Assembly (NCBI GenBank): GCA_033807695.1
Contig: CM066303.1
Location: 3,224,001 to 3,288,000 of the forward strand
Length of the DNA: 64,000 nt
Origin: Daedaleopsis sinensis
Taxonomy: Eukaryota > Basidiomycota > Agaricomycetes > Polyporales > Polyporaceae
Direction: 5' to 3'
A program made the translations under genes and the position numbers. The notes beneath the pieces were generated by a model. It saw nothing but the letters and a program-made list of their open reading frames with translations, was not told where the DNA came from and made no database searches. Positions 3,334-58,222 of this stretch are shown one piece after another. Each line of letters opens with the position of its first letter. Position 1 is the stretch's first letter.

Positions 3334-4711
3334 CGTCGGCGGTATGTAGTCTAAAGTATGTAAGTGTAGTCGTCTAATACCAAAGAGCCAGATGCGCCGC
3401 ACGCAGCCAACCTCCCCTGTAAGGCTGGAGCGTGGGAAGAATCCGGGTGGTGGTGGTAGCAGATCAAGGAGGGTCCTCGTGTCCGTGTCGGACGGGCAGA
3501 GGGGAACCCACTCCTCGCAGTCCAGAGCCCGATCCACGAGGGCATCCCGCAGAGACGCCACCGGCCGGATGCTGGCGGACATTGAGCACGCCCCGTGACG
3601 GACCCGCTCAACGAGAAGGGGCGGAGCAGGTCCAACTATCCACCGCGGCGACGGCTGCGATGGAGGTCGAGGCCGAGACGTGGGGCAGGGAGCTGTCGGA
3701 CCAGCCGATATCGATACCCGAGTCCAGCGACAAGGACTCGGAGGAGCGGCGAGTCGCATGGCCTTGAAACGGAAGTGACAGCGTCGAGTCAGCGTCGGGA
3801 TCAGTGAACATGTATGAATTACTATAGAGTACAAGGTGGCGCAGACTGCAGTAGATACTGGACTATCAGCCGGAGCGTGGTGCGCGAAGGATACCGGGCG
3901 AGTCGAAGTTCGGAAGGAAGCTAGAAGCTGCACACCGCGCTCTCGTGCGAGCGCACAGCGAGCCCAGTGGCAGACGCACATGTGCCCTTCACCGTTCGGG
4001 AGGGTTCTGCAGGGCTTATGTGTCGCTTCATGTCGATGAGTAGCCTCGTGCCTACCGGTGTAAATGGCGTGAGCACATGTCCCAGAATATCACTCTCGTG
4101 TAGCCGCGGTCGCCCATGCGAGTCCGAGTCGCGACATTGATGTTCGGTCTTCGTCCTGCAGCCACGGAGCTCAAACGTCGCCCCTCGCGCTGTGCGACGT
4201 CGAGTGGACTTTACATGTACTGCGGTTCTCGACAGAATCGCAGCGTACGGTGCATGGCTCGTCTCCCGATACCGTCTCGAGAGTGCATGCCATGGCCCAT
4301 CCTTGCACCAGATGTGCGGACGTCCGTCGCGCTGCACTGGGCGCATTATGTATGCACCTCCGGACTGAGTCGCGGAGGATGGGGACGTACCGCGTGTGCG
4401 ACGGTTGACAGTGCACGAGCTGCATCGAGCGAGCGGCCGGGCGACGTGCTTGTGTGTTTGGTTCGGTCCCTGGGTGTCGTGAGTGGAGACGTACAGGATC
4501 TGCCTCCAAGACATCGTGGGACCGGAAAGTGCGTGTGCATGAGTGATGTGGTACGTGCCTTGGACGCTAGCCTCGTGGCAGCGACCTCCTCGCAAATGTG
4601 TACGGTGTTCGACTCTAAGTGTTGTTGTCGTCTCTGCGAATCCAGCGTCCGTCTCCGGGTTCGGTACAAGTCTATGAGACTCAAGGTGAGCTCACGCACG
4701 TCCTGCAGGGC

Positions 4712-8439: not shown

Positions 8440-10445
8440 CTTGGCAGCGCAACAGGGAAAGATGGTGTTAGCTACCAAGCGGTACTGGAGATCCCAACCG
8501 ACCACCTGCGCGGCCTCTTCCAGTCGTGTGTGTCTACCGGCACCATCCCTCAGCAATGGACGACTGCCGTCGTCGCGGCTGTGTGCAAACCAGGGAAGAC
8601 ACCGACCGATCCGGAGAGCTACCGGACGATCGGACTAGAGAGCTGTCTACTAAAGACGCTAACGCTACTGATTGAACACCGCTTGAGAGAGTGGGCGGAG
8701 TCGACACATCGAATACCAGAGGCTCAGAGTGGGTTCCGGACAGGCCAACGGACGGTCAACAACGCGTTCGTCCTCCGCGCATTGATCGAGAAAGCTCGCA
8801 GCATGCGCCGCACGCTGTATGTTGTCTTCCTAGATCTGACGAACGCATTCCCCTCTGTGGACCAGCCTGCCCTGTGGACGAAACTTGCGCGGTGGGGAGC
8901 GAAGGGCCCTCTCATGGACTGGCTACGCATGCTATACTCCACTCTGCGCTACGTTGTCCGCTTCAATGGACAGTGGTCGGATGAGACCTTCAAGTCTCTA
9001 GCTGGCATCCTCACCGGTGACCCTGCATCCCCGATCCTGTGGATTCTCTTCATCTCAGATCTCCGCTTCGATCCCGACGATGACGACGTATTCCTCAACG
9101 GATTGCGAGTCGCTTGTCTCCTCCTTGCGGACGACATCGCACTCGCATCACTGTCCCTGGCTGGGATGCAACGGGAACTCTGGCAGTTCGAGCGGTACTG
9201 CTCCCTCTGCTTCCTAACGGTCAACGTAGTCAAGACGATTGCGTGCATCTTTGGACCGATCCCATCCCCACTCCCCGATCATTTGCTGCACGGACAGCCA
9301 CTACACTTCGTGGACACTGCGAAGTACACGGGAATGACATTCATGACGGTCTCGCGCAATATATATTCACCGCCCAATACTCCAGAAAGGCGGACATGGC
9401 GAAGAAGGTCGCGAATGCTTCCCTCTCAATGCAATCCTACATCGGCTCCCTCCCCCCGCTGATGGCGATAACGCTGTACAATGCGTTCGTCGACCCCCAC
9501 CTGACGTCAGGGTGCGAGGTGGCTCTCGACACACGAGTCTCCGACCTGGAACCTCTTCTCAAAGTCCAGACCATGTACCTACGGCGCGCGCTCGGGCTGA
9601 GCTTGCACTCCCAGCTTCCTCCGCTGTACACCGAGACTGGAGTGTGGCCGCTACAGTACCGAAGGGCGGCGCTTGCCTTGCGATACGTGCTATACGTTGT
9701 GACAAGTGCTCCCCCGCTCGCGCTCGCCGCTCTACTTGAAACATGGACCTTGGCACAGCAAGGGGATAGCTCTTGGTGGAGCGACTTGTATCATGCGCTA
9801 CAAGCCCTCCCCGCACCGATAACCCTCCCTATACGATGCCGCCCCTCCAAGGAGGTCTTCACCGAGAGCCTCTCCCATCTCCAGTCGGCCCTTGCTCACT
9901 ACCTCCGCTCCCTCGTCGAGGGCTCGGAACGGCTGCCGCTCCTACGACTCCGCTTTCAACCCATCCCCCATCCGACACCGCTGTCTAGGGTATGCTGCTG
10001 GCAACCTCATCTTTCGCTGATGCGACGGCCACATCGGGAAGCTCTGATACGCCTGCTCGTATCGGACCACCCGCTTGCGATTGAAGGGCTTCGAAGAGTA
10101 CCTGGACCCCACATTCCGCGAGAGCGTCGAGTTTGTCGCCTATGCCGCCAGCGTTGGGCAGTGGAGAGCGAGACCCATGTGCTGATCGAATGCGCGGAGC
10201 ACCAAATCGAATGCCGAAGGACGCAGTACCTACAGGAAGTGGCCACGAGGATGCCAGCATTCACTCAGATCCAGCGGAGGTTGTCGTCGCCACAACTCCT
10301 CGACTATCTGCTGACCAGGGAAGTTCTCCTCCCTACGACCGCGCACTACGTATTCGACGCTTTCGAGATCGTCAACAGTGTGCCTATGCTGGTTCTCAGA
10401 ACCGAAGAGCAATGGTCGGCTCTGCCCACGCACGAGATGGGCTAG
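8440..10445 (+). pseudogene. LINE reverse transcriptase, 3' fragment with a frameshift
   Basis: Continuation of the split LINE: GKDGVSYQAVLEIP, then ESYRTIGLESCLLKTLTLLI, RT motif A in LYVVFLDLTNAFPSVD, motif B region AGILTGDPASPILW, and motif C as LLADDIALAS (LADD in place of the common YADD). Near 9355-9372 the frame shifts: the first frame reads KYTGMTFMTVSRN and then nonsense, while the second picks up YIFTAQYSRKADMAKK. The AT run AATATATATTC there suggests a dinucleotide gain. The rest carries the usual C-terminal domain ending with CRLCRQRW and THVLIECAEH, the Cys/His motif of these elements. Broken by both insertion and frameshift, so inactive. Confidence 0.85.
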
Positions 10446-42856: not shown

Positions 42857-44388
42857 CTAATCAAGACGTGGTCGCTTCTCGGCGTTATCGGCCTCACTCT
42901 CATTGTCCATCGCTGCGCGCTTCAGATCGTAGGCCTCGTGGCCTACTCGCAATACCCATAGAACATCACCCATCGCGTCGTGCACATCTGCGAGAGAACT
43001 ACCTGCTTCGGTGACGGCTGACAGCCACCATGCAATACCCATGACGGGCAGGAACATGCCGCACGTTCCACCACGCCACAGTGCGTCCCATTCCGCCTTC
43101 TCAGTCGGAGCGACACGAGCAAGTGGCCACGGCTGGTCCAGACGGAGACGACAGGTAGGCTGCATAGATGCCCACCAAACCCGCCAGCGGTTCCCAAAGT
43201 CGTCGGGCTTGATCACGGGGAGCCGGTCGTATGCCCGGTGTTCTTTCATCCACGTTCCGAATTCTTCCGGGCGCTGCTGAGTCGGTAGTCGAGCGCTGTT
43301 GCCCTGTGTCCACATCATATTCAGTAAGAAGTAATAAGATAGGGAAGAACAGAGACGAACTCGTCCATCGGGGTACCCCATACGTTTCTCGAACCGTTGC
43401 CATGCGTTCACCAACTCCAGCCACACACTGCCTCCAGCGTCGAGGAGCTTGAAATACTTGATGGAGGAACATACCCACTCAGGTGCTCCTTCGTCGTATA
43501 GGGAGACCTCGGCAGACTCTCCCAGAGCAGGAAGTGTCGTGCTTACCGTGGCGGAAGCGATGGCCACTGTAGTACTCGGCGGCTCTTGGGTAGAGACGGT
43601 CGTGTTCGAGAAGCCGCCGAGGTCTGGACCAGTCGCGTTGAACATTACAGGGATCGGGACAACCAGGGAGGGGTCGAGCGTGCTTGACGATCCCGGCGTC
43701 GAGACGGATGCTGCGGGAGAGGGACTGGTCGTGCTCACGGTGTTAGAGGCAGGGAAAGTCGTGCTCGGCGCTCCGGGGCTGGGGACGGGGAGGCTCGAAG
43801 CTGCGGGCGCGGGGCCTACGGTCGTCGTTGATCCATGGGCCGAAACCGTCTCGTTAAAGGCCGGGGTGGCGGGCAGGGGCGCGTCCGGAGCGGGGACAGG
43901 CGTGCTCGACGCGCCCGGAGCGGGGGTGGGCGTGCTCGTCGCGCCCGGAGCGGGGGTGGGCGTGCTCGACGCGCCCGGAGCGGGGACAGGCGTGCTCGAC
44001 GCGCCCGGAGCGGGGGTGGGCGTGCGAGCGGGGGTGGGCGTGATCGACGCGCCCGGAGCGGGGGTGGGCGTGCTCGTCGCGCCCGGAGCGGGAGCGGGCG
44101 TGCTCCGAGTCGACGTGCCCGGCGCAGGAACGGGCGTGCTTGATGTGCCAGGAGATGGAGAGAGCGTGCTCGATGCACTGGCAGGAGCGGGCTCCGGACC
44201 AGAACCGGGGATGACCGTGGTTGCCTGTGCTGGGGCGTCGGTGGTGAGGACGGTTGGCGACGTTTCCGAGGTCAGGGGGTTGTCGGTAGTTGCAGGTGTA
44301 GTGGAGGTAGCAGGAGGAGTAGCAGCTGCAGCTGCAGCCTTAGAACGTGTTGTGCGCGTCGGTTTGACAGCCGTGGGATTGGGCGCGC
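42857..44388 (-). pseudogene. Family B copy 3, 3' half (severed by the LTR element)
   Basis: The minus-strand frame is open from the LTR junction at 44388. It starts APNPTAVKPTRTTRSKA, passes an Ala run, then a long low-complexity linker built from ~30-bp units on the DNA (43880-44110), encoding APGASSTPTP-like decapeptides. The C-terminal domain follows: APEWVCSSIKYFKLL, VWLELVNAWQRFEKRMGY, RPEEFGTWMKEHRAYDRLP, FGNRWRVWWASMQPTCR and GTCGMFLPVMGIAWWLSAV, ending RPRLD. This Trp-rich domain matches that of copy 2 (KSWWEWWCGLQPDWRP). An intron probably lies near 43290-43350. The 5' half is at 58217-59748; with one target duplication kept the frame rejoins as REKRAPNPTAV. Confidence 0.78.
44383..44388. 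repeat. Target-site duplication of the LTR element (left)
   Basis: GCGCGC directly before the 5' LTR; same hexamer at 58217-58222. A 5-bp duplication plus one matching base is possible, but six is the simplest reading, because one retained hexamer restores the host frame. Confidence 0.85.
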
Positions 44389-45349
44389 TGATGCGCCCCG
44401 TAGTGGCGCCAGCCCCGCTTTTCGCGCCATCGCCGATATACGGCGATGCCTACTACGACACGCTGGCCAGGACGGAGTCCCTGCCCTCGACCTCCCACTC
44501 CAGGACCACCACATCCCTCCGACAAGGCGGTCGGAGGGGACGCCTCATGCGGCCCACGCAGCGCGCGAGGCCTCCGGCCTCCAACGGGCGCGACGCCCTT
44601 CCCTCCAACGGGCCGCGCCCGTAGGAGGCTTGCGAGTGTTCCCCGCAGCCCCGGCAGGAGGCTGGGCAGCAGCCTGAGGACCGCTCCGACACCCGAGACC
44701 AGAGCGGGCCGCAGTTTAGGTTACAGGCATCGTGCGGGACCGATGACACGCTAGTCGCAGGCGGAGGCGGCGGTGCAGGGGTCCAGGCGTAGCCGTTCCT
44801 GACCGTTCTACGAGACCAGGCGGTAGGACCCGACTGGCGCCCAGGCCGAGGGTTTAGCCACGGTTCCGCCTCCTCGCGGAACTGCGACAAGGCGGGTTCG
44901 AGGTAGTTTCAGGAGACACTGGAGAGTAGGGCAGAGGGTTACGAGCGGGCGGACCACGCTGGAGGCTCCGGATTGGACGAGGTTCGAGGTACCGCACGGG
45001 ACGGTAGCAGTAGATAGGATGCCCGCGTAGAGGACTTGTAGCCTCAGATCCCCCATCCCCCATATCCATACAGGCGCGAGCCCAGCGGTCCGACGCACTC
45101 GACGACCTCGCTGTCGAGCCCGTCCTCGGTGTGATCTCCTTCGAGCCCCGTCCTTCCACGTGCTCCGCCCGTCGTAGTTCCCTGTCCCCTTCTCGATCCC
45201 TCGCTCTCCGGCCTTCGACGTGCGCGTCTCGTCGTAGTTGTTCGTTCCAGTTGCTCGGGAACCAGAGGTCCACCTCGCACCCTTCGGAGCGTCTGCCCGG
45301 TGTTGTGTCTGCTGGGTTTACCTAGTAGATCGCCGGTGCCCTCCCATCA
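44389..45349 (+). repeat. 5' LTR (961 bp)
   Basis: Starts TGATGCGCCCC and ends CCTCCCATCA (terminal TGAT...ATCA inverted repeat). Matches 57256-58216 over its full length. Confidence 0.95.
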
Positions 45350-45901
45350 CTTGGAGCCCACCGCGAGGGGATATTCTCTGCTACCTCTGAGGTCAAGCTG
45401 CAACCTACGCTACGACCGGTCCCTGACCCCGCACGCACCCGAAGCACCACGTCCGGCTCCCGCCCTCCTCGACCGCCGCCCACGGAAGAACCCCGGCCCG
45501 TCTCCCAGCGCAGTGCCTCTCCTCTGACCGATCTCGACGAGCTTCCCGAGACGGAGGACCACCCCGCGCCAGTACCTCCTGCCACCTCTCGCGCTCGCCG
45601 CACATCCACCTCCGTCCCGCCGCGCGTCCCGGCCCCGCGGACTACACAGAACTCGCGAAGAGCTGCTGCGACTGCGGTCGCCCCCGGATTCGACGCTCCC
45701 ACCGCCTCCGCCGTACGACGAGCTGGTAGAGAACCGACTCCACGAGCTCCCTTCCCTAGCGTAGCACCCCCGGCACCTCGGGTTCCCCCTACGTCCAGCG
45801 CATCCCGCCGTACAACTGCACCTCCGCCGCCGCCCGCACAGCAACCCTCCCAATCGACCGCCCCGATTCCCCTGCTTCCTCCTGCAGCGACTGTACCCAC
45901 C
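45350..45901 (+). other. Leader between 5' LTR and gag ATG, open in the gag frame
   Basis: The gag frame stays open through this whole 552-bp leader without an ATG (LGAHREGIFSATSEVKLQ near the LTR; RVPPTSSASRRTTA and IPLLPPAATVPT just before the gag ATG). It reads as a Pro/Arg/Ser-rich segment. Either gag is N-terminally extended from a non-AUG start, or the bias is incidental. Confidence 0.5.
45352..45368 (+). promoter_or_regulatory. Candidate primer-binding site
   Basis: TGGAGCCCACCGCGAGG begins 2 nt after the 5' LTR. Position and the TGG start fit a tRNA-primed site; I cannot name the tRNA. Confidence 0.4.
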
Positions 45902-48526
45902 ATGGCCTCCCCGCTCGACGCACTCCCTGCGCGCAACAGCCGGCAGGCGCCCGTGTGGAAAGAGGCTGATACCACCCGCGACGACGTGGAGCTCTTCTTC
46001 AAAGATCTCGATCGACTCTACGCGCAGAACTCCGTGACCGACCTCGCTGATCAGAAGAAGGGTGCGGTTACCCTCTACGTCCCTCCGGACGTTGCTAAGG
46101 CATGGGCACTACTGGACACCTTCGACGACGCGAGCAAGACGTGGGAGGACCTCAAGGAGGAAGTCTTAGGGTTCTACGTCGGCTCCGACAAAGACCATGT
46201 CTACACTCGACGTGAGTACCGTTCCCTGATAGACTCGACCCTCGCCTCCGGAATCCGCTCCCTCCCCGAATACCTCGCCTTCTATCGGCAATTCTTCCCG
46301 CGCTACAAGTACCTCTCCACGAAGCAGCCCACGGCCGAGGTCTCCGGACCGGAAGGGGTCGATGACCTCCTTCGCGTTGCTCCCGTATTCGTACGCGACA
46401 AGGTCGACAACTACCTCAACCTGAAGCATCCGAACAAGCATAGGGACGATTCGTACCCGCTCGCGGACGTCCACGAAGCAATCACGTACAGTCTCGAAGG
46501 GATCCCGCGCGCGCTCGAAGCCCGCATGCCGCCGACGTACCCCGCCCCCGCACCAGCGGCAGGCACCGAGCGCCGAGGACAACCGGTGAAGCCCGAGCCG
46601 ACGATCGAGACACTCCAATCGCAGATCCAGAACTACGAGCGCGACCTCCGCGATCTCCGCGACCTCACGCGCGGTTGGACGAATCTCCTGGCAGCGCGCC
46701 CGCCACAGGCTGTACCTCCTCCACTCGCGCCGGCAGCAGCTCAGCCCGCGGCCGCAAACCTACCTCCGCCCATGCCTCCGCGTATGCCACAAAACCAGTA
46801 CGGCTACATGCGTCCCCCCTGCTTCTATTGTAACGAGGAGAACTGTCACTCGCGACGCTGCCCGTCCTTCGCGGAGGACGCGGCGAACGGACTCGTCATC
46901 CGCAACGAGCGCGGCTACATGGTCCTTCCGAACGGCAACGAAGTACCCCGTACCTGGCCAGGGCTCACCATGCGCGACCGCGTGCACAACTGGCACGAGC
47001 ACAACCCAGGGCAGAAGGTCCAGGCCGCCGCCGCACAGATGATGGTCACGGTGGAGTCCAACATGCTAGAAGGCGCGACGAACGTCACGGATATCCAGGA
47101 TCGGATCGATAGCCTCCGCCACCAGGCGTCCATGTTGGAGCACCGCGTCGCGACGCGCAGCCAGGGAAAGCTACAATTCGACGGGGTGGAACTGCCCGCG
47201 CGGAAGAAGGCGGTCCGCATCGACGAGAGCCGGAACCAGGCCCATGCCCCTCAGGACGCCACGGTGGACCTACCCCGTGAAGCACGCGGGGGCCGCGACC
47301 TGCCTCCTCACCTGGCGCCGGCGGGAGATAGAGCGGGGTCGCCAGCAGGCCCGCTAGTAGGCCCCGAGCTTCGCGCGCAGGAGCACCCTTACGCCAGGGC
47401 ACGAGACGCGACGAATGCAGGCGACCTCGCGCCGCCCGTCACGAAGAAGACGGAGTCGAACCCATCAGTGACCGCCCCGGCATCCCTTCAACCTGCGCCG
47501 CGCGCGGGGACGGAGACGGTAACGCACCCTCCGAGACCAACCCCGGTACTTGTCGACCCAACCGCCGGCCGTCGCGTCTTCGAGCGCGCCTTCGGGAAGG
47601 AGCAGCGGGTCATGGTGTCCCCGGCAGAACTCGTCAGCATCTCCCCGGAAGTTCGCAAGTACGTACACGAGGCGACCTCGCCAAGGCGTGTCTACGCCGC
47701 GCGCCAGGCAGTGGAAGGAACGCAACTCCCTCCTGCGCCGCGCGAGGTAACGGCACAAGCTGCGGAGCCGGCGAGGGCGGCACCCGAGCCCAGACTTCAA
47801 GTCGCGCAATCGATGGTACAGCAGGCGTGGCCCTGGAGCCCGGACGAAGAGGACGAGGAATGGTCGGACGAGGAGGAAGGAGAAGAGTTCTACGATGCGC
47901 TTCCCGAAGAGGAGGGGGAGACCCACTGCTTTCGTACGACCATAGAGGAGGTTGAAGACGAAGACGACGACCTGCGCGCGCGCGCGCCCTTGCACTCGCG
48001 CGTCGAGACAATCCAGGGCGAAGACCTCATCGTTGCAGAGCCACTAGCCCCTCTCCGGTCGATCTACGGCTTCCTAGGCGCGACGGACCTCACTACGGAG
48101 TGCGTCCTCGACTCCGGGTCGCAGTCCATCTCGATCAGCGTGGAGCACTGTCATCGCCTCAAAATCGCGTACGACCCGACCGCCCGGCTGAACATGGTCA
48201 GCGCAAACGGAACATCGGACACAACCCTGGGGATGGCGCGGCACGTTCCACTCGAGGTCGCAGATGGGTTCATCGTCTATCTCCAGATGCAGGTGGTCGA
48301 GCATGCTAGTTTCGATGTCCTGATGGGGCGCCCCTTCGAGCTGCTCACAGCGATGAAGGTCAACAACGAACTCGACGGCCGACAGTCCATCACGATCACC
48401 TGTCCGAACACGCATAGTACGATTACCTTGCCCACGTACGCGCGCGGCGAGCCGCCGGCGCGTACGCGCAGCGAGAAGGCCAAGCCGAAGAAGTCCCCCC
48501 TGGGGTTTCTTCTTTCGAGGATCTGA
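45902..48526 (+). CDS. Gag-protease polyprotein of the LTR element
   Basis: 874 aa from the ATG at 45902 (ACCATGG context). The capsid-like helical region occupies residues about 15-210 (KTWEDLKEEVLGFYVG, EYLAFYRQFFPRYKYL). A coiled stretch follows (TLQSQIQNYERDLRDLRDL). A zinc knuckle near residue 304 reads CFYCNEENCHSRRC, spacing C-x2-C-x5-H-x3-C, a slight variant of the usual CCHC. After a long disordered acidic and Pro-rich part (DEEDEEWSDEEEGEEF) comes a retropepsin-like aspartic protease near residue 735, ECVLDSGSQSISIS, with ASFDVLMGRPFE further on. The stop is at 48526; pol lies in the -1 frame and overlaps, so pol is probably made by -1 frameshifting. No stop codons interrupt it. Confidence 0.92.
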   Translation: MASPLDALPARNSRQAPVWKEADTTRDDVELFFKDLDRLYAQNSVTDLADQKKGAVTLYVPPDVAKAWALLDTFDDASKTWEDLKEEVLGFYVGSDKDHVYTRREYRSLIDSTLASGIRSLPEYLAFYRQFFPRYKYLSTKQPTAEVSGPEGVDDLLRVAPVFVRDKVDNYLNLKHPNKHRDDSYPLADVHEAITYSLEGIPRALEARMPPTYPAPAPAAGTERRGQPVKPEPTIETLQSQIQNYERDLRDLRDLTRGWTNLLAARPPQAVPPPLAPAAAQPAAANLPPPMPPRMPQNQYGYMRPPCFYCNEENCHSRRCPSFAEDAANGLVIRNERGYMVLPNGNEVPRTWPGLTMRDRVHNWHEHNPGQKVQAAAAQMMVTVESNMLEGATNVTDIQDRIDSLRHQASMLEHRVATRSQGKLQFDGVELPARKKAVRIDESRNQAHAPQDATVDLPREARGGRDLPPHLAPAGDRAGSPAGPLVGPELRAQEHPYARARDATNAGDLAPPVTKKTESNPSVTAPASLQPAPRAGTETVTHPPRPTPVLVDPTAGRRVFERAFGKEQRVMVSPAELVSISPEVRKYVHEATSPRRVYAARQAVEGTQLPPAPREVTAQAAEPARAAPEPRLQVAQSMVQQAWPWSPDEEDEEWSDEEEGEEFYDALPEEEGETHCFRTTIEEVEDEDDDLRARAPLHSRVETIQGEDLIVAEPLAPLRSIYGFLGATDLTTECVLDSGSQSISISVEHCHRLKIAYDPTARLNMVSANGTSDTTLGMARHVPLEVADGFIVYLQMQVVEHASFDVLMGRPFELLTAMKVNNELDGRQSITITCPNTHSTITLPTYARGEPPARTRSEKAKPKKSPLGFLLSRI

Positions 48527-48555
48527 CTGACAGTCAGGGAGATCTCGCCCTCGTC

Positions 48556-51500
48556 GTGGAGTACGACCACACGACGGGCCAGTTGGACCTGACCTCGTAC
48601 GCCGAACTCGAAGATACCAGCCCCGAAACGATTCAGCACGCCTATCTATTCGCGACCGATGACCCCGAAACATCTACAAAAATCAACAACGCTTTTGCCT
48701 CTGCTTCCTTCGTTTCCTCCGTTCCGCTCTCTCCGTCTGAAGTACCGTCGTCGTTCGATACCGCGTCGGCGAAGGCCCCCGGGCCTGGTCCAGAACCTCG
48801 ACCCCCAAAAGCGGCTCCGCAGGAGTCGCACCCATACTACGTACGCGCGCGCGCGTACCCCTCTCGACCGACAAAATCGCTGGGCCGTCGCCCTACTCCC
48901 CTTGGCGCACGAAGCGCGTCCCCCACCGGCCAGGCGCGAGCGCGCGCTTGGCCTGAAGAATCCATCGAAGTCTACGCGAAAACGAAGAAGAAGTACAAGC
49001 CGGTCGCAAAGAAAGTACGTCCGGTAGCGAGCCACCTCCCGGAACACTTCCGGATAGTGCGGAACCGCGTCGGCGACCCCCTCGAAAACATGCCCCAGCT
49101 CGATGCGAATCCGCCCCCCTTCAAGCCGACCGGGAGGTACACCCAGGAACGACACGACCTGATCGACGAAATCCACCGGGAGTGGCTGTCACCGGAGGAG
49201 CTACGCGTCCTACACGACCTCATGTGCAAACAGGAGCTCGCGTTCGCATGGGAAGAGTCCGAGCGCGGTCGTTTCCGCCAAGATATGTTTCCTCCTGTAC
49301 GGCTCGCGGTAGTCGACCACGTTCCTTACAATGAAAGAAACGCTCCCGTCCCCCCTGGCATCTTCCGCGTGCTCCTCGAGATGATCAAGCAGAAGATCGA
49401 CAATGGCGTGTACGAGCCGTCCAACGCGTCGTACCGCACGCGGTGGTTCTGCGTGCTCAAGAAGGACGGGAAGTTGCGCATCGTCCACTCGCTCGAGCCG
49501 TTGAACCGCATCACGATCCAACACAGCGGAGTTCCCCCCGTACCGGAGCACATCGCGGAGCAGTTCGGAGGGCGCCCCTGTGGCTCGACCTTCGACCTCT
49601 ACGTCGGCTACGACGAGCGGGAGATCCATCCCGACTCGCGTGACCTCACGACATTCCAGACCCCGTTCGGCGCGATGCGGCTTACCACGCTGCCCATGGG
49701 ATGGACGAACTCCGTACCTATCTTCCACGACGACATCGCGTTCATCCTCCAGCCGGAGATGCCGGACCACGCAGCAAACTACATCGACGACGTCTTCGTC
49801 ATGGGCCCGAAGAGCGCGTACCTGTTGGAGGACGGAACTCCCGAATGCATCCCCGAAAACCCCGGAGTCCGGCGCTTCGTCTGGGAACAGCTGCGGAACG
49901 ACAACCGTATCATTCAGCGCATCAAGCACGCAGGAGGTACGTTCTCCGGTAAGAAGTCGCGCTTTGCGCCCCCGCGTTTTGGCGCCCTCGGAAGCCGATG
50001 CACCCCGGAAGGGCGCGTGGCGGATCCGGAGTGCGTACAGGCCGTAGTCAACTGGACAGTATGTAAGACGGTCTCCGACGTGCGCGCGTTCCTGGGTACG
50101 GTTGGAGTCGCGCGCATCTTCATCAAGGACTTCGCGAAGATAGCGAACCCGCTCAACAAGCTGCTCCGGAAGGACGCGCCGTTCGAATGGGGGCCCGACC
50201 AGGTGCGCGCGATGGAGGACCTCAAGTCGGCGCTAGCCCACTCCCCGGCGCTCCGAGCGATCGACTACGAGGACGACGCGCCAGTCATCCTCGCCGTCGA
50301 CACGTCGAAGATCGCAGTCGGCTACCTGCTATGCCAAGAAGACCGGGACGACCCCCGCCGACGCTACTACAGCCGTTTCGGGTCGATTACCCTGAACGAC
50401 CGCGAAGCGCGCTTCTCGCAGCCCAAACTGGAGCTGTACGGCTTGTTCCGCGCGCTCCGCGCGATGAAGCTCTGGCTCGTGGGCGTCCGGAACTTAGTAG
50501 TCGAGATCGACGCGACGGCGATACGCGACATGCTGAAGAACCCGGACATCGCGCCTAGCGCAGTTATGAACCGGTGGATCATCGCGATCAATATGTTTCA
50601 CTTCGAGCTACGTCACGTTCCTGGGGTACTGCACGGACCTGACGGACTCAGCCGACGCGTCCGACAACCCGGGGACGAAGAAGGCGACCAAGAGGAGAAC
50701 GAGGAGTTCGACGACTGGATCGACAACATGTACGGCTTCCTCCACCTCGTGAACCTACCACCGCGGTTGCCAGACGCACCCATCGTATACTCCACGCCGC
50801 GCACGGCGCGGGAGGTCGACGCCTTCTTCCAACAGACCAGCGGGACGGCCGCATCCACGCCGGCGATCAAACCGCCCGACTACAGCGCCTGCCCGCGTAC
50901 CTCAGCGGCGCAAGAATTCGACGCGCGCGTAGACCTCGTCCAGCTCTGGCTGAAGAACGGTTCCCTACCAACGACGTCGGAACGCGCACGCGAGCGATTC
51001 GAGAAGTACGCGCGGCAGTTCTTCCTACGCGACGACCGACTGTGGCGTATCGCGCGCGACGGGAACCATCGACGGGTACTGGGTCCCGACACGCGCATGG
51101 AAGTACTGGTAGCGCTACACGACCACCTCGGCCACCGCGGGATCGCCGCGACGATTTCATTCGTGGGGGAACGCTTCTGGTGGCCCGAGATGAAGGCCGA
51201 CATCGCTTGGTATGTTAAGTCCTGCCACCAATGCCAGGTCCGCCAGACCTCGCGCGTTCAGATCCCGCCCACGGTCGCACTTCCCGCACCCCCCATGGTC
51301 CGCGTCCACATGGACACGATGGACATGCCCGGCCGATACAAGCACTTCTTCCACGCGCGCTGCGCGACGACGAGTTATGCGGAAGGTCGCGCCTCCACTG
51401 TTCAGACCGCGAAGGCCCTGGGCGATTGGATCTACCAGGACCTACTGTGCCGGTGGGGCGCCCTCTCCGAGATTGTGTCTGACAACGGGTCCGCCTTCGT

Positions 51501-52287
51501 CGCGGCTCTCGAGCATCTGGAGCGACAATATCACGTAAAGCACATCCGGATTTCGGGCTACAATTCGCGCGCGAATGGAATCGTGGAGCGCGCGCATGTC
51601 GACGTCAGGGAGGCCCTGTTCAAGTCTTGCTTCGACGACGCGCAGAGCGAGTGGGTGTCTAGAGTCTACTCAGTGCTCTGGGCGGACCGCGTAACCACGC
51701 GGCGCCGGATGGGGTGTTCCCCTTACTTCGCAGTGACCGGGACGCAGGCTATCTTACCCTTCGACATCGCTGAAGCTACCTACCTCATGCCAACGCCGAC
51801 GGAGCTCCTATCGACGGCGGACCTCATCGCGCAGCGCGCGGTGGCACTGCAGAAACGGCCAGAGCAACTTGAGAAGCTACGCTCGCGAGTCTATCGCGCG
51901 AGGGTCCACGCGGCACAAGAGTTCGAACGCCTGCACGCGCGAACGGTACGCGACTACAACTTCGCGCGCGGGCGGCTGGTCCTCATCCGAAACACGGCGA
52001 TCGAGAAGTCCCTCAACCGCAAGATGCGCCCGCGATACCTGGGACCACTGGTGGTGGTTTCTAGGAACCGTGGAGGGGCCTACATCGTGGCGGAGCTGGA
52101 TGGAGCGGTCCACGACCGCCCAGTCGCCGCATTCCGACTGCTCCCCTACCTCGCGCGCGAAGAGCTGATCGCGTTCGACCTGTCCGACTTAGACGTGTCA
52201 CGTGACCGCGTCGCCCAGATGGAGCAGGACGAGGACGACTACGACGACCGCGGCGAACCTCAGGACACGCAAGACGAGGAAGACTGA
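48556..52287 (+). CDS. Pol polyprotein: reverse transcriptase, RNase H, integrase
   Basis: 1243 codons from 48556; the frame is open further upstream through the end of gag (-1 register), so this start is nominal. RT: STFDLYVGYDEREI (motif A), LTTLPMGWTNSVPIF (motif B), and NYIDDVFVMG near residue 409 (motif C, YIDD). RNase H: ILAVDTSKIAVGYLL near 579 and VVEIDATAIRDML. Integrase: the HHCC zinc unit HDHLGHRG and SCHQCQVRQ near 854-890, then the DDE triad in VHMDTMDMPG, VSDNGSAF and GIVERAHVDV, the last two acids about 35 residues apart. The C-terminus has RPRYLGPLVVVSRNRGGAYI, an integrase tail typical of Agaricomycete Gypsy elements; I see no chromodomain. No stop or frameshift. Confidence 0.95.
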   Translation: MEYDHTTGQLDLTSYAELEDTSPETIQHAYLFATDDPETSTKINNAFASASFVSSVPLSPSEVPSSFDTASAKAPGPGPEPRPPKAAPQESHPYYVRARAYPSRPTKSLGRRPTPLGARSASPTGQARARAWPEESIEVYAKTKKKYKPVAKKVRPVASHLPEHFRIVRNRVGDPLENMPQLDANPPPFKPTGRYTQERHDLIDEIHREWLSPEELRVLHDLMCKQELAFAWEESERGRFRQDMFPPVRLAVVDHVPYNERNAPVPPGIFRVLLEMIKQKIDNGVYEPSNASYRTRWFCVLKKDGKLRIVHSLEPLNRITIQHSGVPPVPEHIAEQFGGRPCGSTFDLYVGYDEREIHPDSRDLTTFQTPFGAMRLTTLPMGWTNSVPIFHDDIAFILQPEMPDHAANYIDDVFVMGPKSAYLLEDGTPECIPENPGVRRFVWEQLRNDNRIIQRIKHAGGTFSGKKSRFAPPRFGALGSRCTPEGRVADPECVQAVVNWTVCKTVSDVRAFLGTVGVARIFIKDFAKIANPLNKLLRKDAPFEWGPDQVRAMEDLKSALAHSPALRAIDYEDDAPVILAVDTSKIAVGYLLCQEDRDDPRRRYYSRFGSITLNDREARFSQPKLELYGLFRALRAMKLWLVGVRNLVVEIDATAIRDMLKNPDIAPSAVMNRWIIAINMFHFELRHVPGVLHGPDGLSRRVRQPGDEEGDQEENEEFDDWIDNMYGFLHLVNLPPRLPDAPIVYSTPRTAREVDAFFQQTSGTAASTPAIKPPDYSACPRTSAAQEFDARVDLVQLWLKNGSLPTTSERARERFEKYARQFFLRDDRLWRIARDGNHRRVLGPDTRMEVLVALHDHLGHRGIAATISFVGERFWWPEMKADIAWYVKSCHQCQVRQTSRVQIPPTVALPAPPMVRVHMDTMDMPGRYKHFFHARCATTSYAEGRASTVQTAKALGDWIYQDLLCRWGALSEIVSDNGSAFVAALEHLERQYHVKHIRISGYNSRANGIVERAHVDVREALFKSCFDDAQSEWVSRVYSVLWADRVTTRRRMGCSPYFAVTGTQAILPFDIAEATYLMPTPTELLSTADLIAQRAVALQKRPEQLEKLRSRVYRARVHAAQEFERLHARTVRDYNFARGRLVLIRNTAIEKSLNRKMRPRYLGPLVVVSRNRGGAYIVAELDGAVHDRPVAAFRLLPYLAREELIAFDLSDLDVSRDRVAQMEQDEDDYDDRGEPQDTQDEED

Positions 52288-52835
52288 GTGGGCCGGGCCC
52301 CCAGGAGGGAGCCAATTTCAGTTGGGGGGAGAACGGCGGCGACAACGCGCGCAGGAGGAAGGAGCGCTTCAACACCAGGCCTGTGTAGCACACCGACTCG
52401 CACTTGTACTCCCTTACCAACAATCAATTCAACTCTCCCTTCCACGAAACTAGACTATGAGCTACACGCGACACGAGACGGAGACCAGACGACGATGCAT
52501 TCCGGGCCAAGCGTACAAGAAAGCGGACTTACAGCAAGCGCGACCAGAAGGACCAGCGGTATATACGGGAGCGTAGGCTCCGGAGCGTACAAAGCGACGA
52601 CGACGACAGCGACGAGCGCGAAGGAACGATGAAAAGAGAGAGACGCGAGGGCGAGAGGAGGGACAGGATTAGGGATTGGAGGTATAGTAGGGAAGAGGAG
52701 GCGAGGCGATGAGGGCGCGAGCGCCGAGAGAAGTCCACGGAGAGAACATGACGAGAAGAACGGGGGGCCCACGCGTACGAATCAAGCATGCAGAAGTCCA
52801 AGAGGGGGCCTACGAGGCGACCACTCGCCCGACGA
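52288..52835. other. Region between pol and the first antisense gene
   Basis: Contains the first polypurine-tract copy at 52315-52332. After it the sequence is purine-rich on the plus strand (52600-52720, many GGGAGAGG words) with no coding evidence. It holds the convergent 3' ends of pol and of the antisense gene A1. Confidence 0.6.
52315..52332 (+). promoter_or_regulatory. Internal polypurine tract, copy 1
   Basis: ATTTCAGTTGGGGGGAGA, 28 nt after the pol stop, identical over 18 nt to the tract before the 3' LTR (57238-57255). It could act as a central plus-strand primer, or mark where the 3' LTR once joined. Confidence 0.7.
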
Positions 52836-54846
52836 TCACGCGTCCTCCTTCAAGACCGCGCGGAGGACGGCGGCGTTGGGGTCGCTACTGAACTTGTCAG
52901 CGAACGACACCACCTCGGGCAGCCCGGGCGCGAAGTCGCTCCCAAACGGCTCCCCGGAGAGGCGTTGCTCGCGACGGCGGATACCGACGAGCTCCCGCGC
53001 GTTCGCCCAGATCTGCTCGACGAGGAAGTTCGCCCGCTCGCGACCCTCCCGCGCGAGGTCCAGGTCGAACGGCTCGAACTCCTCCTTGGGGAGCACCTCG
53101 GTCCCGGCACGCGCCTTCCCGGACGACGACGCGGAGGCGACGGGCCTCTTCTTCTTGTCCACCGCGCCGGACCCGGCCTTCGTTGCGGAGGAAACGCGGG
53201 CCTTCTTGGGAGGAGGGGCCTCGTCCTCGTCCTCGGAGATCTCGACCACCTCGGCGTCAGGAGGCGCGCGCCCGTCCCCCGCCATGGCGGCGCTGACGGC
53301 CTGCGAGGTAGCGCAAGCGACGGCCAGCTCCTTCAGCTGCTCGGGCGGGGGGTAGGGAGTAGGCCCCTTGGCGGTCCCGATCAGCGTCAGGTGGTCACTC
53401 CGGTGAAAGAGCCGCCCCTGCAGCGCGGCCTGGTCGAGGACCCGAATCTCGCGGCCGCTCTTCTCGAAATCGCGCGCGACCCGGATGGCCTGGAGAGTGG
53501 TGTGGGGCTCGCGGCTGTTCGACCTCAGCGCGAACCCGGCGCCGTTATAGACACCGAGCACGGCGTTGGTCGCGGACTTGAACTCGCCCGTCGTGGACAG
53601 CCCGCCGTACATGCAGGCCGCCTTGTGCGTGGGCGGGTTCGCGCACCGGTCGCAGCGGAGACCGTTGGGGTTGGCCTTGGTGCACGGACGTCCGCTAGCC
53701 GCGCACTTGTCGCACGGCCCAGAGATCCAGACGGTCGCCGCGACCTCCCCCATGTTGTTGACGACGGGCGTGGGGGTCGAGCCGGTCTTCTTACCGGTGG
53801 TGGTGATCCGACCCTTCGGCGCAGCGGGGAGCGTGGTCTGGCGAACGGCGGACCGTCGAGTAACCCGTCCGTCCCCGGGCGTAGCGGAAGGAGCAGCAGC
53901 GGGGGGGGTCGGAAGGGTGAGGGGGACGGCCCCAGGCTCAGGCTCCGCCTCACGCTGGGCGCGCGTACGCTTCACTGGAGCCGTGGGGGTGAAGGGAGAG
54001 GCGAGCGGAGCCGCCTCGTCGTCCGCCTCGACAGGGACAGGGGTCTGACGCGGGAGGGTGAGGGACTCGAGGAAGGAGTCGAGCTCCACGGGGTCGACGG
54101 CAGCGGAGGGGGTGGCGTCCCCCGGCGTGAGGCCCGGCCCGACAGCGACGGCGGGAGAGGCGGTCCCCTCCTCCTCGGGCGGCGGTGAAGCGGGGACAAT
54201 CCACGGGGCGGCAACGTCTTCTCCGCGCGCGGCACGGTGGGCAAGGGCTTGGACGTCCGCCGGCGGGACGCGCGGAAGCTTGCGGTAGTCGCCCAGGAGC
54301 GCACACTCGTGCTGCTCCCACTTAGCGAGGAACAGGAGCCGGCGCGCGTTGCGCAGCCTGCCGGCGTGAGTCTCAGAAGCGACGCGCTGCGCGAAGAGGG
54401 CGACGGCACGGGCCCGGGACCGCGTGGTGTACTCCAGCACGACCTCGTACGCGTCGGACGCGTCGAAGACCCTTTTACTGGCCTCGAGGAACGGGGCGAA
54501 GGAGCCGTCGGCCTCGCCCAAGCTGTCGAACTCCAGCTGGTCCTGGTAGAGCCGAGGTTAGCAGTCGGGCACGGATGGCGAACGAACCAACGGGGCGTAC
54601 CATGCACTCGAGAGCGCGGTCAATGGCCTTCCGGGCCTCCGCCTCCCCCATTCGCGCCAACTCCTCCGCGCCAGTGTTGGCAAAGAAGTCCGCAGCCTCC
54701 TCAGCGGCAACCGAGGGTGTAGGGGAGGCCGACTTCGGGACGCGTTGGGTAAGCGGAGGCTCGGGGCCTGGGTCGGGTACGAGGGAAACGGACGAAGGAG
54801 GGACCGTAGGGAGCGTGACGGACGAAGGAGTGGCCGAGGGGGACAT
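52836..54846 (-). CDS. Antisense cargo gene A1: ~650-aa protein with zinc-cluster-like motif
   Basis: Two exons: 54846-54601 (MSPSATPSSVTLPTV, then FFANTGAEELARMGEAEARK, ending ALECM) and 54542-52836 (DQLEFDSLGEADGS onward). The 58-bp intron has GTACGC and CTACCAG ends and joins in phase 0. Exon 2 has a helical start (VFDASDAYEVVLEYTTRSRA), a Pro/Thr-rich middle, and at about residue 365 a cysteine cluster CDKCAASGRPC plus CDRCANPPTHKAAC, spacing C-x2-C-x6-C-x9-C-x2-C-x9-C. This is close to, but longer in the last loop than, fungal Zn(II)2Cys6 DNA-binding clusters. Downstream are an acidic patch (EVVEISEDEDEAPPPKKAR) and a helical end. Function unknown; a nucleic-acid-binding role is an inference. 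It cannot be translated from the genomic RNA, being antisense. Confidence 0.68.
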
Positions 54847-55048
54847 GGCGGCGGCGAGAAGAGGTAGGAGAGAGAGAGAGGAACGAAGACGCGCACGCAA
54901 AAGAAGAACCCACGAAGGGCGCGACATTTTAAGGAAGGACGTACGGCCCAGGGGCCCATCAACTTCCCCTCGTCTCTGTTTACAAAACAACGCCGGGACG
55001 GACCCGGCGCGCGCTGCCGGAACGCTTCTATTCTTCCTACGGACTGCC

Positions 55049-55755
55049 TCAAAACTCCTCGTCGACTACTATGGTATCCGGTGCGCCCCCTACGGCTTCG
55101 GCTTCCGCGGCGACCGCCTCCGCTGTCACTACGCCCGGAGCCCCCAATTCCGCCTGCCTCGCGCGCTGTGCCGCGACCCTCAACTGTAACGCCTCGCGCC
55201 GCTCCACCTCCGCGACAAGTAGATCGGTCTCCGCCTCCAACGTGCGCAGCCGCGCGGAGGTCGCGATCTCGTGTACAGGGTCCGCGAGCTGGGACTCCAC
55301 TGCGTTCAGGACCAGACGCTGGTACTGGACGTACGCGCGCGCCACGACGAGGTATTGGTCGCGGATGGGGTCTACGACGTCCATCACCGCGTTGTCGAAT
55401 TCGGCCTCAAGACGCTCGCCCTCTGGCAATCGGGCGAACGCTGCAGCTACACGGTGCAGGTCCTGACGAAGGACGGTTGGAGCCCCGTCGTGAAGCGCGC
55501 ACCAGGCCACCTAAAACGGGGAATTCAGTTCCCATTCTGGGCGACGGATCACAAGTTCGGAGCGCGTACTAATACAGGCCCGATCTCTTGGAGCAGGTCC
55601 GACAGCCCGGGCCCGTCGACGTCACCAGCGGCAGCCTTCGTCTCGATCCGATCGAGGAGGCGAAGGAAGCGACTCAGTATGGTGGCGGTGTAAGAATGGT
55701 AGAAGTCCCGATGGGAGTTCGAGAGCTCGAACAGAGGGCGCAACCGAACCGGCAT
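55049..55755 (-). CDS. Antisense cargo gene A2: ~215-aa coiled-coil protein
   Basis: Start at ATG 55755 (MPVRLRPLFELSNSHRDFYH). Exon 1 encodes SYTATILSRFLRLLDRIETK and LSDLLQEIGP; an intron (donor GTATTA or GTACGC near 55570, acceptor CGTTTTAG near 55512) joins in phase 0 to VAWCALHDGAPTVLRQDL. Exon 2 is almost wholly helical: RVAAAFARLPEGERLEAEFD, LVVARAYVQYQRLVLNAVES and TLEAETDLLVAEVERREALQ, which suggests a coiled coil. The C-terminus is acidic (PDTIVVDEEF). No known family. Lies 200 bp upstream (in the antisense direction) of A1, with the 28-bp tandem array before its start. Confidence 0.58.
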
Positions 55756-56058
55756 GTGCGTCGGCGAGTAGGCGGGCGAGGAGACGCAGGGCACGAAGCT
55801 ACCGCCCGCCCGGCCGCGTGGAGGCCTTTTATGGGCCACGCCATTCAGGGGGGGGGAGGCCTGGCGCCCAGACCACGGCCCCGACTCAGCAAGGCGGCGC
55901 TGGCACATCGTTCTGGCGGCGCCATGTCTCGTCCCGACGGGAACTAGGGGGGAACTGAGCCCGCGCGCCCCCTTTCTCCGTCGGCGCACGAGGATGAAAC
56001 GGGCGGGACCAGGGCGATAAACGGGCTGGAGCACAAGGTACTACGGTACGCGCGCGCA

Positions 56059-56310
56059 GGACTGGCGAGCGAAGCGAACAACACGCGGACTGGCGAGCGA
56101 TTCGAGCGATACACGGACTGGCGAGCGAAGCGAGCGATACACGGACTGGCGAGCGATTCGGGCGATACACGGACTGGCGAGCGATTCGGGCGATACACGG
56201 ACTGGCGAGCGATTCGGGCGATACACGGACTGGCGAGCGATTCGGGCGATACACAGACTGGCGAGCGAAGCGAACGATACACGGACTGGCGAGCGATGCG
56301 GACGACACAC
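56059..56310. repeat. Tandem array, nine 28-bp units
   Basis: Units start GGACTGGCGAGCGA and alternate AGCG or TTCG, then GATACAC. 252 bp equals nine exact periods; a shortened unit follows at 56311 (GGACTGATGAACACGAG) and again at 56373. It lies between A3 and the start of A2, where an antisense promoter or enhancer for A2 and A1 might sit. The open frames through it are a consequence of the repeat, not genes. Confidence 0.9.
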
Positions 56311-56540
56311 GGACTGATGAACACGAGACGACAGCGCGCGTGCGTAGGACCGACAGTCGATGCGGGCGACCCACGGACTGGTGAACACGAGACGGCAGCA
56401 ATAGCGGGGAAGCACGATGTACCCCCTGGCCCTACTCTAGCAAGACGGGCAGGGACCCTACAGGAAGGCGGACACGGCAGCGGCGATCACTACGTACGAA
56501 GCACCACCACCCCCCTCCCGCGGGTCGCGTGGCCGGCCAC

Positions 56541-57162
56541 CTAGAAGTAGTTATGGCCGCGCAGGGCGGACAGCTCGGCGTTGAGGGTCTCCCGTTCGGC
56601 CTCCAGGTCCCGGATTCGTTCGTCAAGCGCAAGCGCGAGAAGGATCCCCTCCCCTTCGGCGCGGTCGGCGGTACGGCGGAGGGTACGGAGTTCAACCAGG
56701 GACCGCTGGGCGATGGCACGTTGGGTCACGACCTGGTCGATGCGAAGAAGGCGGCGGTCGGAGGCCACACGGTTCTGGAAGGTGAGGAAGGCATCACGGC
56801 CGAAATCACGCCAGCCGTCCAGGGTGGCTCTCTCGACGCGAGCAATGAAGGCGGCCAGGACGGAAGCGGAGGCGCCGACGAGGGCAAGCGCGCCCTACGG
56901 ACTACGTCAGGCGTGGCTAGAGGGAGGCGGACGGAGGGCGTCTCACCACCATGTCGGCCAGGGCGACCAGCTCGGTTTCCACGCCCTGCAGTTGCCCCTC
57001 GGACCCCGCATCGGCTAGGACCTCGAATTCGACAACGGCGCGCTCGAGCTGTCGGGCCGCCAGCGCGTGCGCACGGGCCAGCATGTCCGGGTTCAACGGG
57101 CTGCTCGGGAAGGGCTGCGCGCGGAGGTTCGGGAAGGCGTCACGGGTGGGAGTTCCGTTCAT
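56541..57162 (-). CDS. Antisense cargo gene A3: ~189-aa helical protein
   Basis: Two exons: 57162-56947 (MNGTPTRDAFPNLRAQPF, then NPDMLARAHALAARQLERAV, ending LVALADMV) and 56894-56541 (GALALVGASASVLAAFIARV, then RDAFLTFQNRVASDRRL, ending ELSALRGHNYF). The 52-bp intron has GTGAGAC and GTCCGTAG ends and joins in phase 0, which removes an otherwise in-frame stop. Exon 2 starts with a small, Ala-rich hydrophobic stretch followed by a coiled-coil-like helix (DERIRDLEAERETLNAELSA). It begins 94 bp inside the 3' LTR boundary, so its promoter would lie in or next to the LTR. No known family. Confidence 0.6.
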
Positions 57163-57237
57163 GGTCAAGGTGGAGGAAGCCCGTCAGTCCAAACTGCCGT
57201 CCCTTTATACCACGCAGAGGGACCGGGGACGGTCCCG

Positions 57238-57255
57238 ATTTCAGTTGGGGGGAGA
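57238..57255 (+). promoter_or_regulatory. 3' polypurine tract (copy 2)
   Basis: ATTTCAGTTGGGGGGAGA immediately before the 3' LTR TGATG, the normal place for the plus-strand primer of reverse transcription. Identical to 52315-52332. Confidence 0.9.
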
Positions 57256-58216
57256 TGATGCGCCCCGTAGTGGCGCCAGCCCCGCTTTTCGCGCCATCGC
57301 CGATATACGGCGATGCCTACTACGACACGCTGGCCAGGACGGAGTCCCTGCCCTCGACCTCCCACTCCAGGACCACCACATCCCTCCGACAAGGCGGTCG
57401 GAGGGGACGCCTCATGCGGCCCACGCAGCGCGCGAGGCCTCCGGCCTCCAACGGGCGCGACGCCCTTCCCTCCAACGGGCCGCGCCCGTAGGAGGCTTGC
57501 GAGTGTTCCCCGCAGCCCCGGCAGGAGGCTGGGCAGCAGCCTGAGGACCGCTCCGACACCCGAGACCAGAGCGGGCCGCAGTTTAGGTTACAGGCATCGT
57601 GCGGGACCGATGACACGCTAGTCGCAGGCGGAGGCGGCGGTGCAGGGGTCCAGGCGTAGCCGTTCCTGACCGTTCTACGAGACCAGGCGGTAGGACCCGA
57701 CTGGCGCCCAGGCCGAGGGTTTAGCCACGGTTCCGCCTCCTCGCGGAACTGCGACAAGGCGGGTTCGAGGTAGTTTCAGGAGACACTGGAGAGTAGGGCA
57801 GAGGGTTACGAGCGGGCGGACCACGCTGGAGGCTCCGGATTGGACGAGGTTCGAGGTACCGCACGGGACGGTAGCAGTAGATAGGATGCCCGCGTAGAGG
57901 ACTTGTAGCCTCAGATCCCCCATCCCCCATATCCATACAGGCGCGAGCCCAGCGGTCCGACGCACTCGACGACCTCGCTGTCGAGCCCGTCCTCGGTGTG
58001 ATCTCCTTCGAGCCCCGTCCTTCCACGTGCTCCGCCCGTCGTAGTTCCCTGTCCCCTTCTCGATCCCTCGCTCTCCGGCCTTCGACGTGCGCGTCTCGTC
58101 GTAGTTGTTCGTTCCAGTTGCTCGGGAACCAGAGGTCCACCTCGCACCCTTCGGAGCGTCTGCCCGGTGTTGTGTCTGCTGGGTTTACCTAGTAGATCGC
58201 CGGTGCCCTCCCATCA
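57256..58216 (+). repeat. 3' LTR (961 bp)
   Basis: TGATGCGCCCC to CCTCCCATCA. Same length as the 5' LTR, and every mirrored open frame is identical, so little time has passed since insertion. Confidence 0.95.
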
Positions 58217-58222
58217 GCGCGC
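58217..58222. repeat. Target-site duplication of the LTR element (right)
   Basis: GCGCGC directly after the 3' LTR, as at 44383-44388. Confidence 0.85.

Follow-up and report, generated by a model that had tools for sequence, protein, structure and literature searches.

Beyond the pol gene of a young 13.8 kb Ty3/Gypsy element we found approximately 4.9 kb of sequence that holds three minus-strand genes, designated A1, A2 and A3. The element occupies positions 44389-58216 of the window, by which we mean the whole 64,000-nucleotide stretch of DNA analysed here (source contig C4). An earlier note on this DNA had described such a region with three minus-strand genes, and their models do join in frame; it had also called the genes cargo and the module the best candidate here for an undescribed system. 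The locus raises the question whether these genes are passengers or a maintained part of the element, and what they might contribute to it.

Structure and target sites of the element

Paired LTRs, a target site duplication, a polypurine tract ahead of the 3' LTR and the order of reverse transcriptase (RT), RNase H and integrase place the element among the Ty3/Gypsy retrotransposons. The 5' and 3' LTRs (961 bp, TGATG...CATCA; plus strand, 44389-45349 and 57256-58216) showed 0 differences in 961 positions, which bears out the earlier description of an element lying whole between two identical LTRs. The flanks have GCGC (also GCGCGC) in common, with the target site duplication GCGC at 44385-44388 on the left and 58217-58220 on the right. 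All on the plus strand, a putative primer binding site, suggested by the flank sequence, is located 2 nt past the LTR (45352-45368) and is followed by a gag ORF (45902-48526) with an aspartyl protease-like C-terminal part, whose Pfam match was narrowly below the cut-off, and by the pol ORF (48559-52287). Pfam matches in pol were ordered RT (residues 300-417), RNase H (544-678), the H2C2 zinc-binding domain (844-897) and the integrase core rve (912-1002), with RNase H and H2C2 above and RT and rve below the cut-off. The chromodomain that would assign the element to the chromovirus branch was not matched by Pfam at E <= 1 at the integrase end of pol. Upstream of 48559 the reading frame of pol stays open, overlapping the gag end at 48418-48526. 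This overlap suggests a frameshift; inspection by eye revealed no clear slippery site between gag and pol. Host DNA immediately left of the insertion contains 30-bp GC-rich repeats (43717-44201).

A 4-bp target duplication fitted all eight elements for which both LTRs were readable, and a ninth (C5a) by eye. The eight duplications were ACGT, GCGG, CCGC, CCGG, GCGG, ACGC, ACGG and GCGC, the ninth was GCGC, and all of them have CG in the middle. The chance of CG-centred duplications in 8/8 elements is approximately 5e-10 at local CpG frequencies of 0.02-0.12. Since every target duplication read has the form NCGN, we conclude that integration is site-biased, and the integrase seems to pick CpG targets. 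No differences between paired LTRs were found in the window element, C3, C8, C10b and C12, one each in C10a and C11, and five in C5b, where one LTR carries a 512-base insertion. The 5' LTR of copy C5c was not found in the stretch examined. Other repeats share the final 133 bp of the LTR at 95%, as seen at eight places, for example at C4:3957491, C4:3962531, C5:1748673 and C5:1758421, paired approximately 5.0 and 9.7 kb apart; these repeats are perhaps a shorter or defective relative of the element.

Distribution of the module in the host genome and beyond

All copy searches were made in the host genome (G000; 51.6 Mb, 24 contigs). A search with the LTR, in which 40 of 55 candidates were scored, yielded 58 matches, and a search with pol yielded 152 candidates, 37 of which were scored while 115 are outside all counts. 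Among the 37 scored pol copies, seven showed an identity of 98-100% (window family), three of approximately 92% (sister family) and 27 of 63-64% (lineage B). Every one of these 37 (of 152 candidates) carried module sequence downstream of pol, and in the window family (7/7) and the sister family (3/3) A1, A2 and A3 were each matched. A search with the lineage-B module gave 33 matches, 28 of them across all 4761 bases, and 23 of the 27 lineage-B pol copies had a full-length module match. The remaining lineage-B copies showed a shortened module (C10:1674962), a module split by insertions (C6:4161032 and C10:243740) or a match to A3 only (C5:3204114).

Integrase_H2C2 matches in the genome numbered 121, of which 48 had an A1, A2 or A3 match within 12 kb and 73 had none, indicating that the module is confined to one Gypsy clade here, as far as sequence search reaches. 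Module matches without Integrase_H2C2 within 12 kb were found at C1:1329532 and C1:1331281 (A3 and A1), C8:558275 (A3), C12:16587 and C3:4683699 (pieces of A2), and in the lineage-B element L058, whose pol is incomplete and matched at residues 972-1221 only. The two matches on C1 (1329532-1331499) are of lineage-B type (29% and 32%) and could be a truncated element or a stand-alone module. Both A2-like pieces (C12:16587-16898, close to the contig end, and C3:4683699-4684007) are decayed (67%, one stop each), have no A1 or A3 match nearby and may represent truncated elements or independent genes.

The A1 frame was whole in eight of ten copies, which means that intact copies exist; in C5c we found a frame shift and an altered splice acceptor, and in C11 a later insertion interrupts the gene. 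Between the window element and lineage B, with pol at 63%, exon 2 identities were 29% for A1, 27% for A2 and 31% for A3. In the cross-lineage alignments A1 kept six invariant cysteines, and A2 and A3 each kept a single invariant tryptophan; the A1 alignment consisted of seven sequences, and several rows of the A1-A3 alignments were near-copies of one another.

Outside this genome, protein searches (about 8,000 candidates scored per run) identified P0001 as a relative of A1, and P0002 and P0003, which have the same source tag as P0001, as relatives of A3. P0002 resembles A3 of the window group and P0003 resembles A3 of lineage B, so both groups are present in other samples. Viral contigs searched for A1 and pol gave no confirmed relative, and a plasmid search gave two weak matches to pol.

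Introns, selection and exchange of A1

A1 (52836-54846, 650 aa), A2 (55049-55755, 213 aa) and A3 (56541-57162, 189 aa) are all encoded on the minus strand, each as two exons that in the gene models join in frame via one short GT-AG intron (54600-54543 in A1 and 55575-55511 in A2). The in-frame GT-AG joins had been claimed before and stand, while for the intron of A3 the placement 56946-56895 (52 bp) fits better, since splicing in the sister family uses this position. Intron lengths differ among copies, with 58, 57 and 52 bp for A1 (window, C3 and C12), 65 and 63 bp for A2 and 52 bp in both cases for A3 (window and C12). The GT-AG borders and splice positions are preserved across copies, except for the acceptor in C5c, and the intron letters drift. 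A branch-like CTAAC or CTGAC is present in the introns of A1 and A3, and A2 has a weaker match only. Lineage-B A1 contains an additional intron (60 bp at two loci, 59 bp at three), after removal of which the frame runs on in all five loci despite the 1-base length difference. Conserved borders and a frame that is kept through length changes are indirect evidence that points to splicing. Between A2 and A3 lies a 28-bp tandem repeat (56059-56316, 9.2 units), whose unit number varies among copies; a similar array was absent from the C12 stretch L040 and from lineage-B L058.

In comparison with the three sister-family copies, dN/dS was 0.15-0.16 for A2, 0.11-0.12 for A3, 0.36-0.41 for A1 (at a dS of 1.15-1.23, i.e. 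near saturation), 0.05-0.06 for pol and 0.11-0.12 for gag (544 of 874 codons aligned in the comparison with C5a). Within the window family there were few changes, and A-gene values ranged from 0 to 1.10 with several undefined. The aligned A1-A3 codons of nine other copies contained no stop; neither a dN/dS near 1 against the sister family (0.11-0.41) nor random stops were seen. In a six-frame control of the window element against C12, the claimed minus frame was stop-free and had the lowest dN/dS in every exon except exon 1 of A1 (0.42, versus 0.37 for the mirror frame on the plus strand). Against C3 the claimed frame was lowest for both A1 exons, and A2 and A3 showed too few changes for the frames to be ranked. 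All four comparisons among the five lineage-B loci having that stretch of A1 gave a low pN/pS (0.14, 0.12, 0.17 and 0.11). By these codon comparisons A1-A3 are under purifying selection. The earlier proposal of an accessory module that travels with its element thus held, given its presence at 37/37 scored pol copies, the kept gene order and splice positions and the purifying selection; the label cargo was not upheld as worded.

A1 changes much more rapidly than pol. For the C3 copy (L014, L046) dS was 0.365 for A1 and 0.03-0.05 for gag, pol, A2 and A3. Identity of this copy was 82-83% in the blocks of 53689-54888, 92-96% in 52489-53688 and 96-100% elsewhere, and exon 2 of its A1 was 92% identical to P0001. 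This mosaic and the likeness to P0001 indicate that A1 is exchanged between elements; we infer that the A1 tract of the C3 copy (52.5-54.9 kb) was swapped in from another lineage.

Polypurine tracts and candidate promoters

The internal polypurine tract TTTCAGTTGGGGGGAGA is located on the plus strand 28 bases beyond the pol stop (52316-52332), and the same tract lies ahead of the 3' LTR (plus strand, 57239-57255). No other match was found in the window when up to 3 mismatches were allowed, and two matches arose in 0 of 100 shuffles. Both tracts were present in 10/10 copies, with the inner one differing at 1 of 17 letters in the three sister-family copies. In lineage-B copy L058 the two sites, 4304-4317 and 8519-8532, both read AAGTGGGGGGGAGG, and two matches arose in 0 of 200 shuffles; the other lineage-B copies match the L058 tract stretch at 94-99%, the letters themselves being read in L058 only. 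Tract pairs are alike inside a lineage and different between lineages. A shared reader, namely the lineage's own RT and RNase H, would cause this agreement; sequence conversion between inner and outer tract is the other reading.

Beside the 3' tract the minus strand carries the palindrome GACCGTCCCCGGTC (57221-57234; GACCG-TCCC-CGGTC, of the form CCG-N4-CGG), then the TATA box of A3 (TATAAA, minus strand, 57204-57209), ending 35-41 bases before the A3 start. All three groups (window family, sister family and lineage B) have the TATA box and the palindrome next to the 3' tract. The TATA box is the same in the sister family and is represented by TATATAAA in lineage B, where the palindrome reads AACCGTCCTCGGTT (AACCG-TCCT-CGGTT) with both arms altered jointly. 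CCG-N4-CGG is the arrangement of the yeast regulator Leu3, which we take as a lead and not as a test. The idea of an enrichment of the palindrome in the element was dropped, with 16 occurrences of CCG-N4-CGG versus 19 expected and 2 of ACCG-N4-CGGT versus 0.66 expected; the examined part of the lineage-B LTR contained no such pattern. A2 is preceded by a TATA-like box ATAAAA on the minus strand (55827-55832; CATAAA in the sister family), and a TATA-like box TTAAAA of A1 was looked for in the sister family and not seen there. The earlier note had placed transcription of the module on the 3' LTR side, and this can be refined: the candidate boxes of A3 and A2 are inside the internal region, from where transcription may start.

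Predicted proteins

At approximately residues 355-395 of its protein A1 encodes a cysteine cluster C-x2-C-x6-C-x9-C-x2-C-x9-C, with a final spacer of x8 in lineage B. Zn2Cys6 proteins generally show the spacing C-x2-C-x6-C-x(5-12)-C-x2-C-x(6-9)-C, which A1 fits with its last loop at the long extreme. No Pfam family, PF00172 included, was matched by A1 at E <= 1. GAL4 was the sole match in a profile search of PDB and was located at the cluster (E 2.6 and 6.7, not significant). The structure model of A1 had a mean pLDDT of 50; for exon 2 it was of fair quality at residues 41-110 and 271-420 alone, where block means were 55-85 apart from a drop to 45 at 381-390. Each cysteine pair coincided with short helices, and the model matched no PDB fold at E <= 0.001. 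Most basic clusters of A1 fall within its last quarter.

A2 and A3 gave weak unrelated Pfam matches only (E 0.11-0.19), and a comparison of their profiles with each other gave no convincing match (probability 0.9 of 100, E 0.061). Exon 2 of A2 was modelled as long helices (mean pLDDT 68), and a profile search with A3 gave a single PDB entry (E 0.57, not significant). The most hydrophobic 19-residue stretch averages approximately 1.0 in A1 and A2 and 2.06 in A3, where it lies at the splice junction; the usual threshold for membrane segments is approximately 1.6. A3 is thus possibly membrane-bound, with the stretch not kept in lineage B. EVVEISEDEDE in A1 (approximately residues 514-523) and the C-terminal DTIVVDEEF of A2, which resemble SUMO-interaction motifs, occur in similar forms in the sister family and not at those places in lineage B.

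Possible function of the module

We favour, with a probability of roughly 0.55, the reading that this is a selected antisense module in which A1 is a Zn2Cys6-type regulator acting with A2 and A3, and in which the inner tract primes a second plus strand. The module, kept through lineage splits, probably helps the element and is not a chance rider. Comparison of the copies shows a recently active Ty3/Gypsy element with no detectable chromodomain that carries a long-standing selected module of three antisense intron-bearing genes. The antisense orientation would allow the introns to survive retrotransposition, since the genomic RNA corresponds to the sense strand, on which the spliceosome would find no splice sites there. 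The conserved boxes suggest that transcription of A2 and of A3 probably starts at a TATA promoter belonging to each gene. A1 is most likely a nuclear DNA-binding regulator of the Zn2Cys6 type that may, together with A2 and A3, act on the control region of the element, e.g. on the CCG-N4-CGG palindrome, and so tune expression. Since the inner tract is conserved in 10/10 copies and in L058, it most likely serves to prime another plus strand, by which the module and the 3' LTR would form a separate DNA segment. Points against this explanation are the missing Pfam match of A1, its pLDDT of 50, the absence of a PDB fold match at E <= 0.001, the palindrome being not clearly enriched and the A1 box not seen in the sister family, and the hydrophobic stretch of A3 is unexplained by a nuclear role.

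The selected genes might instead act on the particle or the pre-integration complex, i.e. in nuclear entry, in target choice or as a stand-in for the chromodomain, which we regard as a realistic if distinctly less probable explanation. The chromodomain-free pol, the site-biased integration at NCGN targets (8/8 and the ninth) and the basic clusters of A1 would agree with such a role, but an integrase alone can produce a dinucleotide preference and nothing links A1-A3 to particles. Fast change and exchange of A1, which in the C3 copy diverges far beyond pol, could also be explained if the module counters host silencing such as quelling or DNA methylation, and the motifs resembling SUMO-interaction sites that two families have in A1 and A2 would be in line with this. 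We consider it improbable, as dN/dS of A1 (0.36-0.41 against the sister family, 0.17 for C3) gives no indication of positive selection across the gene as a whole and as the motifs were missing from the corresponding positions of lineage B.

Elements are able to capture genes, and a few module matches are without Integrase_H2C2 within 12 kb (on C1, C8, C12 and C3, and L058), as might be seen after a recent capture of host genes or with a nested element carrying passenger cargo. Recent capture was set aside and is very unlikely, because the module is common to lineages with pol at 63% and its remaining matches in the genome adjoin integrase matches. That the antisense RNA itself is functional and the proteins incidental is the least probable of these explanations: such regulation has been proposed in plant elements (PMC7264820), but codon-level purifying selection, invariant cysteines and a frame kept across introns of changing length argue for the proteins.

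The selected regulatory module can be carried one step further, to a tentative and rather doubtful picture of a clade with two plus-strand segments, gag-pol from the 3' tract after strand transfer and a self-regulating antisense block from the inner tract, with a GAL4-like regulator reading the palindrome. If this were true, the palindrome would lie between the promoter of the block and the tract, a single short region would link reverse transcription to gene control, and elements would exchange A1 as a part. The clade offers three genes under selection, young copies, introns by which antisense mRNA would be recognisable, a candidate DNA-binding protein together with its candidate site, and a polypurine tract in two copies; each of these is open to direct testing. 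Some zinc-cluster genes annotated in related genomes possibly belong to mobile elements.

Comparison with known systems

In lentiviruses and foamy viruses the 3' tract is repeated internally as the central polypurine tract, and the transcript of HBZ in HTLV is spliced. A conserved second copy of the 3' tract is also present here, whereas the inner tract lies just past pol and borders the antisense module, where it would act as a primer; for HIV this comparison draws partly on an abstract. The cysteine spacing of A1 agrees with the Zn2Cys6 (GAL4-type) regulators, while the PF00172 match of that family was not found. Such regulators bind CGG half sites, for which the palindrome is a candidate site here.

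LTR elements with antisense genes have been described previously, as the available parts of these publications show (PMC11963269, PMC8365987, PMC5408684), and a review of 2020 regarded their roles as undetermined (PMC7264820). The label of an undescribed system did not hold as worded, as Gypsy elements with antisense genes, including the fungal Boty/brtn, are already known (PMC11963269, in part). In the plant Gypsy elements Grande (gene23), RIRE2 and Retand the antisense ORFs are likewise found between pol and the 3' LTR in a long region. For the Grande gene an own promoter and a nuclear product have been reported (PMC7264820; PMC11963269, in the portion available), and antisense RNA regulation was proposed for plant elements (PMC7264820). 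In contrast to these three, the element described here has three tandem genes, each with an intron, a six-cysteine cluster and bracketing polypurine tracts, of which the Retand passages found make no mention. According to the same passages about half of the Retand elements have tandem repeats in this region, which here occur in the window family; the Retand domain TRP28 (Transposase 28) was not matched by Pfam in A1-A3, which sets the element apart from that lineage. The antisense genes HBZ and APH-2 of HTLV have nuclear, regulatory products (PMC11963269, in part) and an antisense promoter in the 3' LTR (PMC7264820). They likewise belong to an LTR retroelement, whereas the boxes of A2 and A3 are internal. 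In mainly open-access literature, among the titles and abstract openings listed, we found no fungal element in which several intron-bearing genes lie antisense, no zinc-cluster protein in such a block and no inner tract bordering it. The Boty-like elements of Botrytis, by the partial description available, are also fungal Gypsy elements with an additional antisense gene (brtn), but one versus three here. We conclude that the element is a new, richer variant of the Gypsy elements with antisense genes, distinguished by three genes, their introns and an inner polypurine tract.
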